DNA of 53,600 bases from Minwuia sp. Lineage in GTDB: Bacteria; Pseudomonadota; Alphaproteobacteria; Minwuiales; Minwuiaceae. The notes under the pieces were generated by a model. That model saw nothing but the letters and a program-made list of their open reading frames with translations, did not search any database and was not told the DNA's origin. Made by a program: the position numbers and the translations under genes. Location of the stretch: the NCBI GenBank assembly GCA_029213165.1, contig JARGNO010000015.1, forward strand, positions 23,215 to 76,814, in the 5' to 3' direction. Below are positions 21,817-28,870 of the stretch, one piece after another. Each line of letters opens with the position of its first letter. Position 1 is the first letter of the stretch.

Positions 21817-24800
21817 TCAGTTCTGACGCAGCAGTTGCTCCGCCCGCCCGAAACGTTCCGTCTCGATCAGCATGGCGACATAGTCTGCAAGCAGTGACCG
21901 GTCAGATGGACGCTCCGCCACAAGTCCCTCATAGACCGCTATCGCTTCCTCGTCTGCGCCGATTGCGGTGAGGCCGGTTGCCTTCCTGCGCCGGGTCTCG
22001 AAGTCGTTCTCCTGCTTCGCGGCGATGCGTTTCAGCATCTCGCGATAGGCCGCCCGCCCCTCCTGCGGGCGATTCATGGCGGACAGGGACTGCCCGTAGT
22101 AGTACCAGGGGCGATGGTCAGCGCGTCGCTCGGCATCGGCGACGCGGAAGTATCTGTCCAGAACCTCCACCGCCTTCTCTGCCCGGCCCGCGAACGTGAA
22201 GCTGCGACCTGCCTGCAGCAGACGGTCCGGGTCATCGCCGATGCGATCCAGCAGCTTGTCCCAGGCCTGAACAGCCACATCCGGCTTTGCCGCCTGCTCC
22301 GCCCAATCGGCCATCTGCAACAGGGGCCGGGTATCGTCGGTCGATGGAATCAGGCGACCGAGCAACTGTCCGACCTCGTCGAAACCACGTTCCACGATCA
22401 GCGCATTCACATAGGGCGCGAGCACCGGATCGGCCCCCGACACCGGTGGCTTGGGGGCAACAAGTGCAATGGTCCGCGCCGTGGCACCAACATCGTTCAG
22501 CAATTGCAGCCATGCCGCACGATCCTGGTCCGTCCCGGCGGAGCGCGCCCGGCGGGAAAGCCATTCGAGCCCACGTTCGGGCGGGCGTGGCCCCCAGAGG
22601 AACACCAGTTGCTGCACATCGGGCGAATCCGGGCGCGCATCCTGTGCGAGCAGGCTGAAGGCCTGTTCCGCTTCCGGCTTGGCCCCCAGATCAAGCAGAC
22701 GGAAGGCGGCATTGCGCCGATCCTGTGCCTTCAGGCGCTTGTCGATGGACCGGCGTGTGACCCAGACAATCAGGTCATCCCGCCGTCCGGCAGTGGCCAG
22801 GGCTTCCTCATAGACCGGGGGCCATGGGCCAGTGGGTTCGGCCCGCGCAACCGTCTCAAGGAAAGGCAGGGCACGGGTCGGCCCGGCAACTTCCAGCAAT
22901 TCATACAGCAACGCGTCACGCTGGGCCTTCGGGAGACCGGATCGCAGGCGCCGGACCAGAACGTCGGCACGCTCCTTGTCCGCCTTTGCCAGGCGCAGTG
23001 CCTGGACATAGGCTTCCTCCCACCGCGCCGGGTCCGACCGTGCCAGATCGCGCAGGGTCGGCAATGCCACATCCCCAAGCCCGGCATCAAGCAGGGCGAA
23101 CAGCAGGCCTTCGCGCGTCGCGGCATCCATGGTCGGGTCAGCCAGGGCGGACTCCGCGAAACTGCGCAGATCAGCCGGATCACCGCCCCGCCCCAATGCC
23201 GCGACATAGGCACTGCGGACCTCCGCCGTCCCGGGCAGCAGCGCGCGCAGGATCGGCACGGCCTCCTCTGCCCGTCCGGCATTGGTCAGCGCCTGCCCCC
23301 AGACCAGCGATGCCTCGTTTCCGGGATACAGGGCTTGCAGCTTCTCTGCCGCCGCGAAAGCCAGGTCCGGCTTCGCGCTCTGTGTGGCAAGGTAATAGAT
23401 ATCGGAGAGCACCTGGCGTCCCGGCTGCGGCGTGGACTTCAGCCATGCAAGCACCGGCCCGGCTTCGCCAGCCTGTGTCTCCAGCCGGGCCCATCCCTCC
23501 TGCACCTGCGGTGCGTCACGTTGCGCCCGCAAGGTACGCAACAGGGGCAATCCGTCCTTCGCCTTGCCCAGTTCGAGGTAGAGGTTGGCGAGATTGGCTA
23601 TGGCAAAGGGCGGTGTCGCCGGATCACGGGCCACCGTCTCCAGCAATGCCAACGCGCGCGTGTTCTCCCCCAGATCGGTCAGGGTCCGCGCGATCGAAAG
23701 ACGCGTCGCAAGCGGCGGATCGGCGACAGCCAGAGCTTTCTCCACCCATTCCCGCGCGGCCTTGTTGTCGCCACGCGCCACCGCGATGCGGGCGGCCATG
23801 GCAGGTCGCTTCGCCAGGAATTCGGGTCCGGTTTCCGCCAGCAGCCAGTCGATCAGCGCGAAGTCACCTTCCTCAGCCGCGTTCTCGGCGAGTGATGCAA
23901 CTGTATCCTCCGGCAGCAGGCGCGGATTCTGCCGCCGCGCCTCGGCAAAGGCGATCTGCGGCTGGTCCAGTTCTATGGCCAGCGCCATCAGGTCGTCAGC
24001 AAGCAACAGGGGTTGCGGCTCACCGGCTGAGCGGGCCTGCAGGTAGGCCAGCGCCTGCGGCTTCCGCCCCGCCGCAGACAAGGCGGCGACATAGACCTCT
24101 GCGTCCTCCGGCGTGCCGGGCAGCAACTCCTTCAGGATCGGCAGCGCCTCCTCCGCCCGCCCACGTCCGATCAGGGAATTGGCATAGATGCGCCGGGTGC
24201 GTTCATCCTGTTCAAGCTGGTACAGGCGTGCCGCGGCATCGAAGGCCAGCGGTTCGGCCCCGCTCTCCGCAGCCAGGAAATGGATATCCTCCAGCAATTG
24301 CCGGTTCGTGACGCGGTTTCGCTTCAGCCAGTCCTGCACCCGCCTCGGATCACCGGCCCGGGTTTCCAGCCGCGCCCATCCAGCCTGGACCTGAGGCTCT
24401 GCCCGTTGCTCGGCCAGGGATCGCATGAGCGCCAGACCATCGCGGGCGCGGTCCAGTTCCAGATAGAGTGCGGCAAGGTTGCCAATCGCCCAGGCGGGCG
24501 TATCAGGATCGCGCGCCAGACCCTCCAGCCGTTTCAGCGCCCCGGCCTGATCACCAAGTTCGGCCTGCACCCGTGCGAGATCGATCCGGTCATTCAGCCG
24601 CAAGTCGGGCAAGGCACTGGCCCTGGCCAACCACTCGGCCGCCGCCTTCCGGTCACCGCGGGCAATGGCGATCCGTGCGGCGGTCACGGGGCGTGCGGCC
24701 AGAAACGCCGGGCCAAGCGTGGAAAGCATGTTGTCGATCAGTTCAAATCGCCCCTCCAGCGCTGCGGTCTCCGCCAGGTAGGCGACGGTGTCGCCCGGCA

Positions 24801-26661
24801 ACCGGGTCGGGTCCTGGCGTTGCAGCTCTGCGTACGCGACGGCTGACTGCCCCTGATCAATGGCCAGTGTGATCAGATCATCGGCAATTTGTGGCGGCAG
24901 CGCTGCGTCGGCACTGCGTTCCTGCAGGAACGCCAGGGCATCCGCTTTCCTGTCGGCGGCGATCAGGGCCTCCACCCACGTCTCGGCATCCTCGGCATTG
25001 CCTGGCAACAGGACCTCGAGAACCGCAAGAGCCTGACCGGCACGCCCATTGGCGGTCAGCGCCTGGCCATAGAGGCGACGGGATTCCCGGTCCGGATGGT
25101 CGCGGAACAACCGCTCTGCGGCAAACAGGGCCGAGACCGGTGCCAGTCCCGGCGTGGAAAGCGCGACGATATCCGTCAGCACATCCCGGTCGACCAGTCC
25201 CTGTTGCTGCAACCAGGCGAGCAGGGCCTTGTCCCTGCCCGATTTCGCCGCGAGCCGGGCCCAACCCGCTTCCGCTTCGGGAGAAGGATTGTCTCGCCGC
25301 AGGCTGCTGAAAGCCGCCAGTCCGGCTTGCAGTCGCTCGGTACCGATGTAGAGCTGTGCCAGCGACCGGATCATCGGCGCATCAAGATCAGGACGTGACG
25401 CGATCTGATCCAGCAGACGCGCTGCCTTCGGGTCCTCGCCCAGCTTCAGCCAGGCGCGCGCCAGGCGGAACTGTTCGTGCGTCGGCAATTCCGCCTCGTC
25501 TGCGGCCCGCTGCGCTTCGGCCATGGCATCATCGCGGCGGCCAACGCCGAGCAGCAGTTCAGCCATCAGCGCCGGGTGCCCGGCACGGAACGGCGCCTGC
25601 AACTCCTGCAACAGCCTCTGCATCAGGGCCTGGCGGCGGAATGCCACCGCGACGTCACCGAGAGCACGCAACCGGAAATCCGTCAGGCCGGAGAGGTCGC
25701 GCCGCAGGGCCACCTGTTCCAGCAGATCAACTTCCTGGCCCTGCAAGGCGAGGTCGATGAAGACCGGAAATGCAAGGTCCGGCAGCTTGTCTTGCCTGTC
25801 CAGCGCCACAAGACGCTCCAGCGCCACGGTCGTGCGATCCAGGCCGTCCTGCATCCGCGCCCAGAACACAAGCAGTTGCGGCGAAAGGTGAAGCTGCTGT
25901 TCGAATGCGCTCAGCAGGCGGATACCCAGAGCATTCTGCTCACGCTCAGCGGCTTCGCGAATGATCGGGATGATCGCACCCTGGCTGCCCTTGGCCTCCG
26001 CGAAGCGGGCAACGATGTCCGCGGCCCTGTCCTCTTCGCCATAGGAACCTGCGATCATTGCGTAGAGCTTGACGGAGCGGACTTCAAACGAGGTCGGATT
26101 GCTGCGCCACATGCGTTCCAGAAACGCCAGAGCCTTCTGCGGCTCCTGATCCGCCGCCGCGAGTTCCGCCGCCTCCAGGAAGTCCGGGGGACGGGCATTG
26201 CCGTCGTCAATCAGCTGCGCAAGACTGCCCCGCAGCTTCGCGTAATCACCGCGATAGCGGTACAGATCGACAAGTTGCCGCTCCTCCTCCGGCTTGTGCT
26301 GCGCCTCCACAACCTCTGCCAGCGTCCGCACGAAATCGTCCTGGCGTTGCGCGAAACGATAGAATTCGGCCAGTTTCCGTTTCGCCCCGACGTCCTTCGG
26401 TCGCCGGGTGAGATAGGCTTCCATCACCCGGATCGCCTTGTCGATATCGCCATCATGCAAGGCAATATCGGCGAGCGAAGCCACGACCACGACAGACGTG
26501 TCGCCTGCGTCCATTCTTTCCTGCAACGTGTCCCGCGCCAGATCCACCTTGTCCGAGCGCAGTTGCAGCAGCGCCACGTCTTTCTGGCTGGGGATCAGCA
26601 ACAGGCTGAGTCCCACACCCAGAATGACAACAACGACCAGCAGGATCAGGTTCAGGCGCAC
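21817..26661 (-). CDS. Giant membrane-anchored TPR protein, PelB-TPR-like, with an internal 295-residue repeat
   Basis: The 1614-residue product begins with one transmembrane anchor (LILLVVVVILGVGLSLLLI) and is otherwise alpha-helical TPR-like repeats rich in Ala, Leu and Arg, so it is probably periplasmic. Segments from residues 401, 696 and 991 align with an exact 295-residue period: GWARL at 466, 761 and 1056, and LLPG at 551, 846 and 1141. The start is a GTG at 26661 behind a weak GGA, 7 bp after the PelA-like stop. In Pel systems PelB combines periplasmic TPRs with an outer-membrane barrel; here the chain ends in TPR helices (EQLLRQN) and no barrel is present. Pairing with the PelA-like gene suggests a scaffold for exopolysaccharide modification or export. 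The Pel link is inferred from gene order and domain type. Confidence 0.8.
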   Translation of the reverse strand: MRLNLILLVVVVILGVGLSLLLIPSQKDVALLQLRSDKVDLARDTLQERMDAGDTSVVVVASLADIALHDGDIDKAIRVMEAYLTRRPKDVGAKRKLAEFYRFAQRQDDFVRTLAEVVEAQHKPEEERQLVDLYRYRGDYAKLRGSLAQLIDDGNARPPDFLEAAELAAADQEPQKALAFLERMWRSNPTSFEVRSVKLYAMIAGSYGEEDRAADIVARFAEAKGSQGAIIPIIREAAEREQNALGIRLLSAFEQQLHLSPQLLVFWARMQDGLDRTTVALERLVALDRQDKLPDLAFPVFIDLALQGQEVDLLEQVALRRDLSGLTDFRLRALGDVAVAFRRQALMQRLLQELQAPFRAGHPALMAELLLGVGRRDDAMAEAQRAADEAELPTHEQFRLARAWLKLGEDPKAARLLDQIASRPDLDAPMIRSLAQLYIGTERLQAGLAAFSSLRRDNPSPEAEAGWARLAAKSGRDKALLAWLQQQGLVDRDVLTDIVALSTPGLAPVSALFAAERLFRDHPDRESRRLYGQALTANGRAGQALAVLEVLLPGNAEDAETWVEALIAADRKADALAFLQERSADAALPPQIADDLITLAIDQGQSAVAYAELQRQDPTRLPGDTVAYLAETAALEGRFELIDNMLSTLGPAFLAARPVTAARIAIARGDRKAAAEWLARASALPDLRLNDRIDLARVQAELGDQAGALKRLEGLARDPDTPAWAIGNLAALYLELDRARDGLALMRSLAEQRAEPQVQAGWARLETRAGDPRRVQDWLKRNRVTNRQLLEDIHFLAAESGAEPLAFDAAARLYQLEQDERTRRIYANSLIGRGRAEEALPILKELLPGTPEDAEVYVAALSAAGRKPQALAYLQARSAGEPQPLLLADDLMALAIELDQPQIAFAEARRQNPRLLPEDTVASLAENAAEEGDFALIDWLLAETGPEFLAKRPAMAARIAVARGDNKAAREWVEKALAVADPPLATRLSIARTLTDLGENTRALALLETVARDPATPPFAIANLANLYLELGKAKDGLPLLRTLRAQRDAPQVQEGWARLETQAGEAGPVLAWLKSTPQPGRQVLSDIYYLATQSAKPDLAFAAAEKLQALYPGNEASLVWGQALTNAGRAEEAVPILRALLPGTAEVRSAYVAALGRGGDPADLRSFAESALADPTMDAATREGLLFALLDAGLGDVALPTLRDLARSDPARWEEAYVQALRLAKADKERADVLVRRLRSGLPKAQRDALLYELLEVAGPTRALPFLETVARAEPTGPWPPVYEEALATAGRRDDLIVWVTRRSIDKRLKAQDRRNAAFRLLDLGAKPEAEQAFSLLAQDARPDSPDVQQLVFLWGPRPPERGLEWLSRRARSAGTDQDRAAWLQLLNDVGATARTIALVAPKPPVSGADPVLAPYVNALIVERGFDEVGQLLGRLIPSTDDTRPLLQMADWAEQAAKPDVAVQAWDKLLDRIGDDPDRLLQAGRSFTFAGRAEKAVEVLDRYFRVADAERRADHRPWYYYGQSLSAMNRPQEGRAAYREMLKRIAAKQENDFETRRRKATGLTAIGADEEAIAVYEGLVAERPSDRSLLADYVAMLIETERFGRAEQLLRQN
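23212..23691 (-). repeat. Partial repeat unit 3 of the 295-codon module inside the TPR gene
   Basis: This covers about residues 991-1150. Similarity to units 1 and 2 is clear up to the LLPGTAE region and then fades into unrelated TPR sequence. Confidence 0.75.
23692..24576 (-). repeat. Repeat unit 2 of the 295-codon module inside the TPR gene
   Basis: This covers residues 696-990 (885 bp). It is close to unit 3 in the shared part, for example LLPGTPEDAEVYVAAL against LLPGTAEVRSAYVAAL, and GWARLETRAG against GWARLETQAG. Confidence 0.85.
24577..25461 (-). repeat. Repeat unit 1 of the 295-codon module inside the TPR gene
   Basis: This covers residues 401-695 of the TPR protein (885 bp). It shares, in register, ARxxxxLG at its start, GWARL, LLPGN and ARIAIARGD with units 2 and 3. 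It is the most diverged of the three. Confidence 0.8.
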
Positions 26662-26668
26662 GGTTCCG

Positions 26669-28870
26669 TCAGCCCGCTTCCGCCGGGCGGATCACGATGT
26701 CGACCGGTTCGTAGGCATGGGTCGGCAGGTCCGTGATCAGCACACCATCCGAGCCGACGGTCTGTTCATCGCTGACTGAGGTCCCGTCCGGCAGGGTTGC
26801 CACGGCCTGCCACTGGCCCGGGCGCAGTCCACGCCATTGCATGGCACCATGGCCAAAACCCTGCCCCTTCATGCGCAACGCTTCGCCGTCGCGGGTCAGA
26901 GCCCAGAGATGCCAGCGCGCATCCACCAGTGACGGCTTCGCCTGGGGCTCGGCGCGTGCGATCAGACGATACTCCGGCTCGGCAACCGCTTCATCCAGGG
27001 CGACATAGAGATTGCCCTGAAACCGGGTATAGCCCAGAACCCCGATGGCAGATGCCATATCCACCGCCCGATCATCAGCATTGTCATGGCGGATGGTCTG
27101 CATCCGACCCCGGTCCAGCACACGCCAGTGGTCAGGTCCCAGCACGTCGAACCGGGTGGTGTAGAACCCCTCCCCGATCCGCGCGTAGTGAGTCGCCTTG
27201 ACCGGCGCGATACGCTGACTGCGCGCGAATTCGAGGTTCTTGAGCAGGGCCTGCAGCGCCGCAGGACGCTCTGCCGAATACATGTGGTAATAGACGTTGA
27301 TGCCCTTCAGCCGCCGCGGGCTCTCGGTATTGCGCAGGGTCAGGATCAGGTCCTGGTAACCGAAATAGCGGCCTGTCCAGAGGTCGGTATAGGTATTCTC
27401 GTTGCTGTTGACGGCGAAGATCTGCACCTGCCCGCCGAAGGTCCGGCCCACTGGCGGAACATAGCTGACGGAGGGGAATTCCGGGTCAAAACGCGAGTCC
27501 CCGCCGTTCAGGTTCAGCAGCCCCGCCTGCCGTGAGGCCGCGATCATGCGTGGTGTGGGCGATGTATTGCCTGACCAGAGAACGATCTCCGCCTTCTTGC
27601 CCGGCGGCGCGAACTGCTCCACATACCGCGAGGCCTCACCGAACTCCCGCGCCAGGACAAACGGCTTGCTGCCGAATCCACGCGGCACGTCATAGGCGTC
27701 AGACAGCAGCCCGGACGGCTTGGCCGCGTCACTGTCAAGTACATCCTCCCCCCACGCGGCCCGGTCGAGGTGATTGTAGAGGGTAACGAATGGCGCTTCC
27801 TTCTCGGTCGTGTACGCGTCGAAGAAACCCCACTGGAACGGATGGCTGTAGGTATGGTGCCCGACCTCCACCTGCGGCAGTGCGAAAATCTCCCGGGCGA
27901 TCTGCTGTGCCTCCGGATCACCTGACCATTCCGGGTCCAGGTCGGCGGCGATCGGCCCGACCGTGATCGGCAGGTCGGGATAGGGCGCGATGGCCCGTTC
28001 CAGCACGACTCGTGACGAATAGATCTGGTCCTTCCGGTAGCCCTTCACCAGAGAGACATTGCGCCAGCCGTCACCATCGATGTGGCTGAAATAGATGCGG
28101 CGCCCGCTCAGCGTCGTCGTGTCCGGCTTCGGCAGGCTGTCCGTGCCGAAGATCCTGCGCACAAAGGCAAACGGATTGATGTACCACTGCGTGCGGAAGA
28201 ACACCGGGTCGCGATAGAACGCCCAGCCGATCTCGACGAAACCGCCACGGGGTGACGTGATCACCACATCGCTGGTCGATCCATCCTGCTGACGCCGGAC
28301 ACGCAGGTGAGATGTACCGACACCCGCCACGGCCTCATAGCGTTCGTGTGGCGGCAGCTTCCCCGCCATTGGCCGTTCGAAATCCACCATGTCGGGATCC
28401 CGTTTCACGACCTTGGTGTCAAACGTGACATTCGTCCATTCGCCCAGGATGCGCAGACCGACATGTTCCAGAAAGCGGTTGGTGCGCGCACGCGTTGGTA
28501 CTGGCGAGCCATCCGAAGAACCCAGAAAGCCCATGTCGCCGAAGGACGCGTACTTCTTGCCTGCGAGGACCATGTCCTCCAGCCAGTCCAGGAATGCTGC
28601 CGGGCGCGGGATCGCGCCATTGTCGAACCAGGTGATCACACCTGCCACGGTGGGATCTGTCACCGCATCCAGAGGCAGCGGATCGGCGATATTGTGAAAC
28701 GACAACTTCAGACCCAGGTGGTTGAACGGCATCTCGACCAGTACGTGCAGCGGGTTGGCGCGCAGTTCATCGCCATTGTCGTTGTAGAAGGCGAGCACGA
28801 TGCGCGGCGCCTCCACCGCGTTGGCGGCGTTGGCAACGAACACAATCAGAAACATGAGGATGAAACGCAA
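26669..28870 (-). CDS. PelA-like polysaccharide deacetylase (deacetylase and C-terminal domains only)
   Basis: The product has 733 residues with a signal peptide (MRFILMFLIVFVANAANA). A Rossmann-like region (PRIVLAFYNDNGDE, GVITWFDNG) is followed by a carbohydrate-esterase-4-like deacetylase: HIDGDGW with D265 and D267, and GHHTYSHP with H339 and H343, the Asp-His-His metal triad. A C-terminal beta-rich part holds SAIGVLGYTRFQGNLYVAL. This layout matches PelA, which partially deacetylates the Pel polysaccharide, but the N-terminal GH114 hydrolase domain of PelA is missing. The start is the TTG at 28870, with GGGGGAG 6 bases upstream. An earlier in-frame start at 28945 would place the signal peptide internally. 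It is followed directly by the TPR gene. Confidence 0.82.
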   Translation of the reverse strand: MRFILMFLIVFVANAANAVEAPRIVLAFYNDNGDELRANPLHVLVEMPFNHLGLKLSFHNIADPLPLDAVTDPTVAGVITWFDNGAIPRPAAFLDWLEDMVLAGKKYASFGDMGFLGSSDGSPVPTRARTNRFLEHVGLRILGEWTNVTFDTKVVKRDPDMVDFERPMAGKLPPHERYEAVAGVGTSHLRVRRQQDGSTSDVVITSPRGGFVEIGWAFYRDPVFFRTQWYINPFAFVRRIFGTDSLPKPDTTTLSGRRIYFSHIDGDGWRNVSLVKGYRKDQIYSSRVVLERAIAPYPDLPITVGPIAADLDPEWSGDPEAQQIAREIFALPQVEVGHHTYSHPFQWGFFDAYTTEKEAPFVTLYNHLDRAAWGEDVLDSDAAKPSGLLSDAYDVPRGFGSKPFVLAREFGEASRYVEQFAPPGKKAEIVLWSGNTSPTPRMIAASRQAGLLNLNGGDSRFDPEFPSVSYVPPVGRTFGGQVQIFAVNSNENTYTDLWTGRYFGYQDLILTLRNTESPRRLKGINVYYHMYSAERPAALQALLKNLEFARSQRIAPVKATHYARIGEGFYTTRFDVLGPDHWRVLDRGRMQTIRHDNADDRAVDMASAIGVLGYTRFQGNLYVALDEAVAEPEYRLIARAEPQAKPSLVDARWHLWALTRDGEALRMKGQGFGHGAMQWRGLRPGQWQAVATLPDGTSVSDEQTVGSDGVLITDLPTHAYEPVDIVIRPAEAG

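Follow-up and report, generated by a model that had tools for sequence, protein, structure and literature searches.

In Pseudomonas aeruginosa, PelB is described as one chain with an inner-membrane helix, 19 TPRs and a 16-strand barrel (PMC12022489, PMC12141448), and its N-terminus is proposed to fix it in the inner membrane (PMC12141448). Seven residues of PelA from this species (PaPelA), H526, D528, D530, H600, H604, E723 and H761, have been named as catalytic (PMC12022489). All seven pel genes are reported as needed in P. aeruginosa (PMC10269871), the role of the PelC ring is called puzzling (PMC12141448), and binding of c-di-GMP at the I-site of PelD is described as required in both P. aeruginosa and Bacillus cereus, with a streptococcal PelD lacking the domain (PMC7112168). 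The PelADA of B. cereus is a deacetylase-only PelA, and in bacilli a flanking gene of its own supplies the hydrolase (PMC7112168). Fission of pelB together with rearrangement of pelA and pelB is depicted for aquatic thermophilic species of other lineages (PMC7112194, Fig 5), in passages that carry no domain detail of the split. Here, we report a two-gene locus of Minwuia which we read, with high confidence, as a pelA without the GH114 domain followed by the TPR portion of a PelB that is made as two chains, i.e., as parts of one Pel machine whose genes were separated by rearrangement. PelB fission and GH-less PelA are thus already in print for other lineages; what is unusual here is the layout and a few changes at the level of the parts.

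The window, i.e., the whole 53.6-kb stretch of DNA that was analyzed, is part of contig C66 of a 4.12-Mb genome. Both open reading frames of the pair are on the minus strand. The first, pelA (26669..28870), has a TTG start and encodes 733 amino acids with a signal-like segment at the N-terminus; the relatives G001 and G002 share this TTG, and so does G004, where it sits one codon ahead of the matched stretch. Neither Pfam nor NCBIfam gave any match to this protein at E 1. Against the PDB sequence 9cgy (PelA of Pseudomonas thermotolerans), it aligned at E 5.8e-58 over chain residues 255-835 (phmmer), and a 46-sequence profile reached E 1.3e-101 in two stretches, 254-562 and 588-874, both far beyond chance. 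The AF2 model (pLDDT 90.6) also found 9cgy as its best Foldseek match (E 6.7e-46, 721 columns, TMq 0.73), with the runner-up at 4.3e-6. Residues were matched to PaPelA by hand on the alignments to 9cgy (chain index +36 gives the P. thermotolerans numbering and +47 that of P. aeruginosa). The HIDGDG motif (residues 263-268, 28067..28084, minus strand) contains H263, D265 and D267, equivalent to PaPelA H526, D528 and D530, and the HHTYSHP motif (residues 338-344, 27839..27859, minus strand) contains H339 and H343, equivalent to H600 and H604. D265, D267, H339, H343, E491 and H529 are present in all 46 aligned rows, and H263 in 43 of the 46.

The layout of the protein is a mixed alpha/beta domain, a CE21 deacetylase and a beta-rich C-terminus. 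These parts and the catalytic residues are common to the Pseudomonas PelA (CE21; 9cgy), whereas the N-terminal GH114 is missing from the 733-aa protein, as indicated by the empty Pfam search at E 1 and by the alignment to 9cgy, which begins only at residue 255. Because 9cgy is matched in sequence as well as in the model and the catalytic residues are kept, the 733-aa protein is, on sequence and predicted fold, a PelA (CE21) without the GH114 hydrolase domain, with a predicted activity on alpha-1,4-GalNAc. Its likeness to the PelADA of B. cereus is by description only, and the Minwuia set differs in being Gram-negative and in including both a TPR partner and a barrel for the outer membrane.

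The second gene (21817..26661, minus strand, GTG start) begins seven bases after the pelA stop and encodes a 1614-aa TPR protein with a putative inner-membrane anchor and no barrel. Its predicted transmembrane segment (about residues 5-23, 26593..26649, minus strand) is a hydropathy peak of 3.3 over 19 residues from residue 5, and nothing outside the N-terminus exceeds 1.6. In other words, the N-terminal membrane helix and the TPR scaffold of PelB are present in this chain, and the barrel is absent from it. As a lone query, the protein found no PDB chain at E 0.001. When the TPR and barrel families were each turned into an HMMER profile, neither recovered any of five canonical PelB proteins, with the cut-off as loose as E 10. 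Since HMMER misses canonical PelB, our reading of the gene relies on profile-profile comparison (TPR family against canonical PelB, hhalign probability 98.7, E 2.8e-16, with the caution that TPR regions align readily with one another), on the gene position, and on loci in which TPR and barrel share one open frame. There are six of the latter among the best 80 of 156 related loci (L060, L073, L083, L088, L090 and L100), and they support the reading of the two chains as halves of PelB. From these comparisons, the best reading of the 1614-aa protein is therefore that it supplies the TPR half of PelB, with the other half on a second polypeptide. An N-terminal membrane helix, a long TPR scaffold and a 16-strand barrel are common to PaPelB and this set; in Minwuia, however, scaffold and barrel are on separate chains in separate loci, and the scaffold has 1614 residues versus 1193 for the whole PaPelB. 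Please note that TPR-gene lengths in the related loci were taken from stop-to-stop frames and are upper bounds; the longest rows (L065 and L081) start within or ahead of pelA and are not true lengths.

Much of the TPR protein consists of three copies of a 295-residue module, recognizable by GWARL at residues 466, 761 and 1056. With an arbitrary register, copy 1 covers residues 436-730 (24472..25356), copy 2 residues 731-1025 (23587..24471) and copy 3 residues 1026-1320 (22702..23586), all on the minus strand; copies 1 and 2 are 48% identical, and copy 3 has 33% identity to copy 1 and 38% to copy 2. The TPR protein of the sister species G003 (1318 aa) has two modules and that of Azospirillum cavernae (1026 aa) has one. 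Outside the clade, copies 1 and 2 of the window are nearest to copy 1 of G003 (58 and 54%) and copy 3 is nearest to copy 2 of G003 (56%), and the last module copies are nearest to the sole module of A. cavernae (35-38%). Copy 1 of G003 resembles copy 1 of the window over the first ~120 columns and copy 2 of the window in most of the remainder. A simple stepwise duplication was dropped given this mosaic likeness. Because of the mosaic, it seems that one module was gained in one lineage or lost in the other, probably via recombination between copies.

The profiles for the barrel and for pelC, D, E, F and G match nothing in the window, and the neighbors of the pair encode a carbon-nitrogen hydrolase and an MFS transporter, both unrelated to Pel. 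The other pel genes were found on contig C45 of the same genome. The inner-membrane protein PelG was identified by PF16933 (415 bits), and the glycosyltransferase PelF, immediately upstream of it, by NF038011 (452 bits, cut-off 100). Before pelF, in one direction, are genes for a 751-aa barrel candidate, a 510-aa GAF protein (PelD) and a 422-aa protein (PelE). The last two names are taken from position, domains and hhalign; compared with three canonical proteins each, the PelD family gave probability 96.7 (E 3.3e-10) and the PelE family 98.2 (E 2.7e-14), both in small alignments, and plain HMMER profiles of pelD and pelE caught one and two of the three canonical proteins, respectively. A GH114 protein is encoded at C45:93296-94000, ~16.5 kb past pelG.

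The barrel gene (L012:8864-11119) encodes TPRs and has a weak Pfam barrel match below the cut-off. Its family matched the C-terminal end of the canonical, single-chain PelB at hhalign probability 89 and E 2.1e-6 (one comparison, five PelB). The A. cavernae homologue, which is 32% identical to the Minwuia protein, was modeled (pLDDT 89) with 16 barrel strands, and Foldseek ranked PelBC 9h80 first for this model (E 4.9e-17, TMt 0.76) and BcsC next. We consider the 751-aa protein to be the predicted outer-membrane barrel half of PelB, the strands being those modeled in the A. cavernae homologue. The A. cavernae barrel protein (L072:15294-16889) also has a beta-rich domain at residues 43-134 of the model, ahead of TPRs and barrel, and the Minwuia protein has a longer N-terminus which, as read from its sequence, looks like two such domains. 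Genes for a 302-aa P-loop protein and a MetA-like homoserine acyltransferase (PF04204) lie directly ahead of the barrel gene in this genome and in G002, and between the TPR and barrel genes in the sister species G003 and G006 (L012:6908-8764; L125 14334-16379; L122 7976-9816; L126 14197-16061). To our knowledge, neither gene has a known link to Pel.

The two arrangements can be compared directly within the genus. In G006, pelA, TPR, P-loop, metA-like, barrel, pelD, pelE, pelF and pelG are on one strand within ~16 kb, and G003 has the same gene order across two overlapping stretches. In the closed genome of G002 (L037; Kordiimonadales bacterium IMCC3096), which belongs to the window's clade, pelA and the TPR gene are at ~1.20-1.21 Mb (pelA at 1.209), and barrel to pelG at 4.13-4.14 Mb (pelG at 4.134), i.e., ~1.35 Mb apart along the shorter arc. 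G001 (L038; Minwuia thermotolerans, Alphaproteobacteria, Minwuiales), G002 and G004 (L039) all have the pelA-TPR pair with no further pel gene in the surrounding 10 kb. An assembly artifact as the source of the split was ruled out, as G002 is one closed contig and all three genomes show the isolated pair. Further splits were suspected in G052, G203, G168 and G085; in the stretches examined their pel genes reach contig ends, which gives no evidence of a split. The MFS gene upstream adjoins pelA in both the split and the contiguous arrangements. The genes of Azospirillum thermophilum run epimerase, GH114, pelA, TPR, TPR-barrel, a member of the GNA1162 family (assigned to pelC by profile), GAF (pelD), hypothetical (pelE), pelF and pelG, the last two carrying annotation. 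This plasmid operon (L021) has the same PelA form, a split PelB and pelD-G; unlike the Minwuia window, it is contiguous, with GH114 and pelC inside the operon and a TPR gene of 3057 bases (1018 aa). The aquatic thermophiles, as far as they are depicted in PMC7112194, share the split PelB and pel rearrangements. Since the sister species are contiguous and the pelA, TPR and barrel genes are also grouped in more distant relatives, contiguity is most simply taken, from gene order, as ancestral and the split as derived, with the break in the window's clade lying between the TPR and P-loop genes.

How far this organization extends was surveyed in related loci, with genes called by profile searches of all six frames. 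The following counts refer to the best 80 of 156 loci from a pattern-based search, and they are hence biased to this PelA group. The TPR gene is straight after pelA in 68 of the 80, and a GH114 gene is found within 3 kb on the same strand as pelA in 56, and in the frame of pelA in one. A separate TPR gene behind pelA with the barrel on its own gene is the commonest form. Among the 57 of these loci with more than 8 kb downstream, 53 have TPR after pelA and, anywhere in the locus, 44 have a barrel (five in the frame of TPR), 22 pelC, 52 pelD, 52 pelE, 52 pelF and 43 pelG; the five without any of pelD-G are the three split Minwuia loci (L037, L038 and L039), L089 and L108. An even draw of 192 alphaproteobacterial genomes contained 12 with PelA (profile A3) and 14 with PelG, the latter including all 12 with PelA (Fisher 2.5e-17, ignoring kinship). 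The 12 PelA genomes represent 9 genera of 167, and three of them are the Minwuia genome studied here and two of its genus. All seven Minwuia genomes have a PelA of this form, as one copy per genome (E 0.001), together with PelG and a GH114 match.

Some of the related loci have other layouts. L022, a plasmid of Cereibacter azotoformans, has a polysaccharide biosynthesis/export family gene beside pelA and pelF-G; TPR and barrel were not matched there by our profiles (the same profiles miss canonical PelB too), and it is possible that its exit through the outer membrane is a different one. The loci of Hyphomicrobium and related MAGs (L096, L097, L102, L106, L107, L109, L111 and L113) contain pelA and pelD-G along with a short TPR gene that matches only weakly, and no match to the barrel profile. 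L114, from a Chlamydiae bacterium MAG, has three consecutive pelA-like frames with pelG and pelF beside them on the opposite strand, and L062 and L129, apparently one record, have the shuffled order pelA, pelD, pelE, GH114, TPR.

Two components of the Minwuia set deserve separate mention. A 20-sequence PelC profile found nothing convincing in any of the seven Minwuia genomes (best E 0.026), where a very divergent PelC is possible. In 10 non-Minwuia genomes, the same profile was strong in four (one of them, G059, is itself in the profile) and weaker in a fifth (6e-10, inside a long frame), and nothing convincing was found in G022, G085, G127, G128 and G182, all of which have this PelA; the absence is therefore not special to Minwuia. 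As for PelD, 64 aligned rows were inspected at the RxxD place, some genomes being counted twice: seven are gapped, 47 have R and D, five have SPxV and five others depart from RxxD (L062/L129 has GSSS there). The SPxV rows are those of all four Minwuia genomes examined (G000, G002, G003 and G006, one twice; L012:11122-12654 on C45, L125, L122 and L126), and RxxD is kept in 47 of the 52 ungapped rows outside Minwuia. Because RxxD is replaced, and P. aeruginosa and B. cereus are described as needing c-di-GMP binding at the I-site (PMC7112168), the control of Minwuia PelD may differ, judging from this motif. The loss of RxxD is common to the unsplit sister species and so is not a consequence of the split.

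In the machine that we propose, PelF together with PelD, PelE and PelG would make a chain, presumably GalNAc-rich, and move it over the inner membrane. From its anchor in that membrane, the TPR protein would guide the chain through the periplasm and would hold PelA, provided that the two bind each other, and PelA would strip part of the acetyl groups. The chain would then exit via the separate 16-strand barrel, on which the TPR chain presumably docks, so that the two PelB halves would need to meet as separate proteins. This path, which starts at the inner membrane and leads past PelA to the barrel, is drawn by analogy with the PelAB (PMC12022489) and PelBC (PMC12141448) models as described there.

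Gene content, homology, predicted folds, contiguity in the sister species and co-occurrence were directly observed, and the reading of one Pel machine draws on PelA homology, on the barrel and pelD-G of the same genome, on contiguity in relatives and on co-occurrence. The earlier note, made from the window only, was right about the sizes and spacing of the two frames, the PelA-type deacetylase motifs and PelA-like character of the first protein, its lack of GH114, the membrane-anchored, barrel-less TPR protein in the pelB position, the unrelated flanking genes and the lack of pelC-G in the window. The comparisons it proposed placed the first protein on the PelA fold rather than outside it, and its suggestion that synthesis and export genes lie elsewhere was borne out by pelF, pelG, pelD, pelE and the separate barrel gene, all on C45. 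Its idea of a stripped-down system with a new scaffold was not supported: the other pel genes are in the genome, the pair is contiguous with them in two congeners and in Azospirillum, and a TPR gene after pelA with a separate barrel is the commonest form among the best 80 of 156 related loci. The two-gene unit is conserved across relatives, and in the contiguous ones its neighborhood is a pel operon. The note had also raised the action of the pair on another polymer, which we considered in the form of a stand-alone module independent of pelDEFG. In the window's clade the pair is indeed apart from every other pel gene, with neighbors of other families, as such a module would be; however, PelG accompanies PelA in 12 of 12 genomes (of 192) and in 7 of 7 Minwuia genomes, two sister species hold the pair inside the pel operon, and each Minwuia genome has a single copy of PelA (7 genomes, E 0.001), which leaves this reading very improbable.

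Scarcely more probable is that the split broke Pel production and that the pair is a decaying remnant drifting to loss. The divided operon, the PelC that was not found, the lost RxxD of PelD and the GH114 gene outside the operon could all be seen as signs of decay; yet both frames are open and similar among the split-clade species (PelA 74-88% identical to G001, G002 and G004; TPR protein 89% to G002 and 77% to G004), six catalytic residues are kept in every one of the 46 rows and H263 is kept in 43 of them, and the RxxD loss, being shared by unsplit sister species, did not result from the split. We therefore keep to one Pel machine with separated genes. A further-reaching suggestion, which we put forward only tentatively and hold to be somewhat doubtful, is that the Minwuia exporter has been reworked, with a two-chain PelB, no PelC ring, no c-di-GMP control via the RxxD of PelD, and a rod whose length varies by the 295-residue module.

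Our searches found no literature on pel for Minwuia or for the PelA group described here, as judged from titles and the beginnings of abstracts. With this result, one candidate for a new kind of exopolysaccharide system falls away, and the partners that the pair lacked in the window are probably identified. PelA of this group is labeled "hypothetical protein" in Azospirillum and Cereibacter records, to which the family name could be transferred. If the exporter is reworked as suggested above, rod length would be an evolvable quantity that changes in steps of one module (one in A. cavernae, two in the sister species and three here). Minwuia also offers a natural case of the PelB halves on two chains, apparently with no PelC, and so bears on the purpose of the PelC ring and on how a TPR scaffold joins two membranes.
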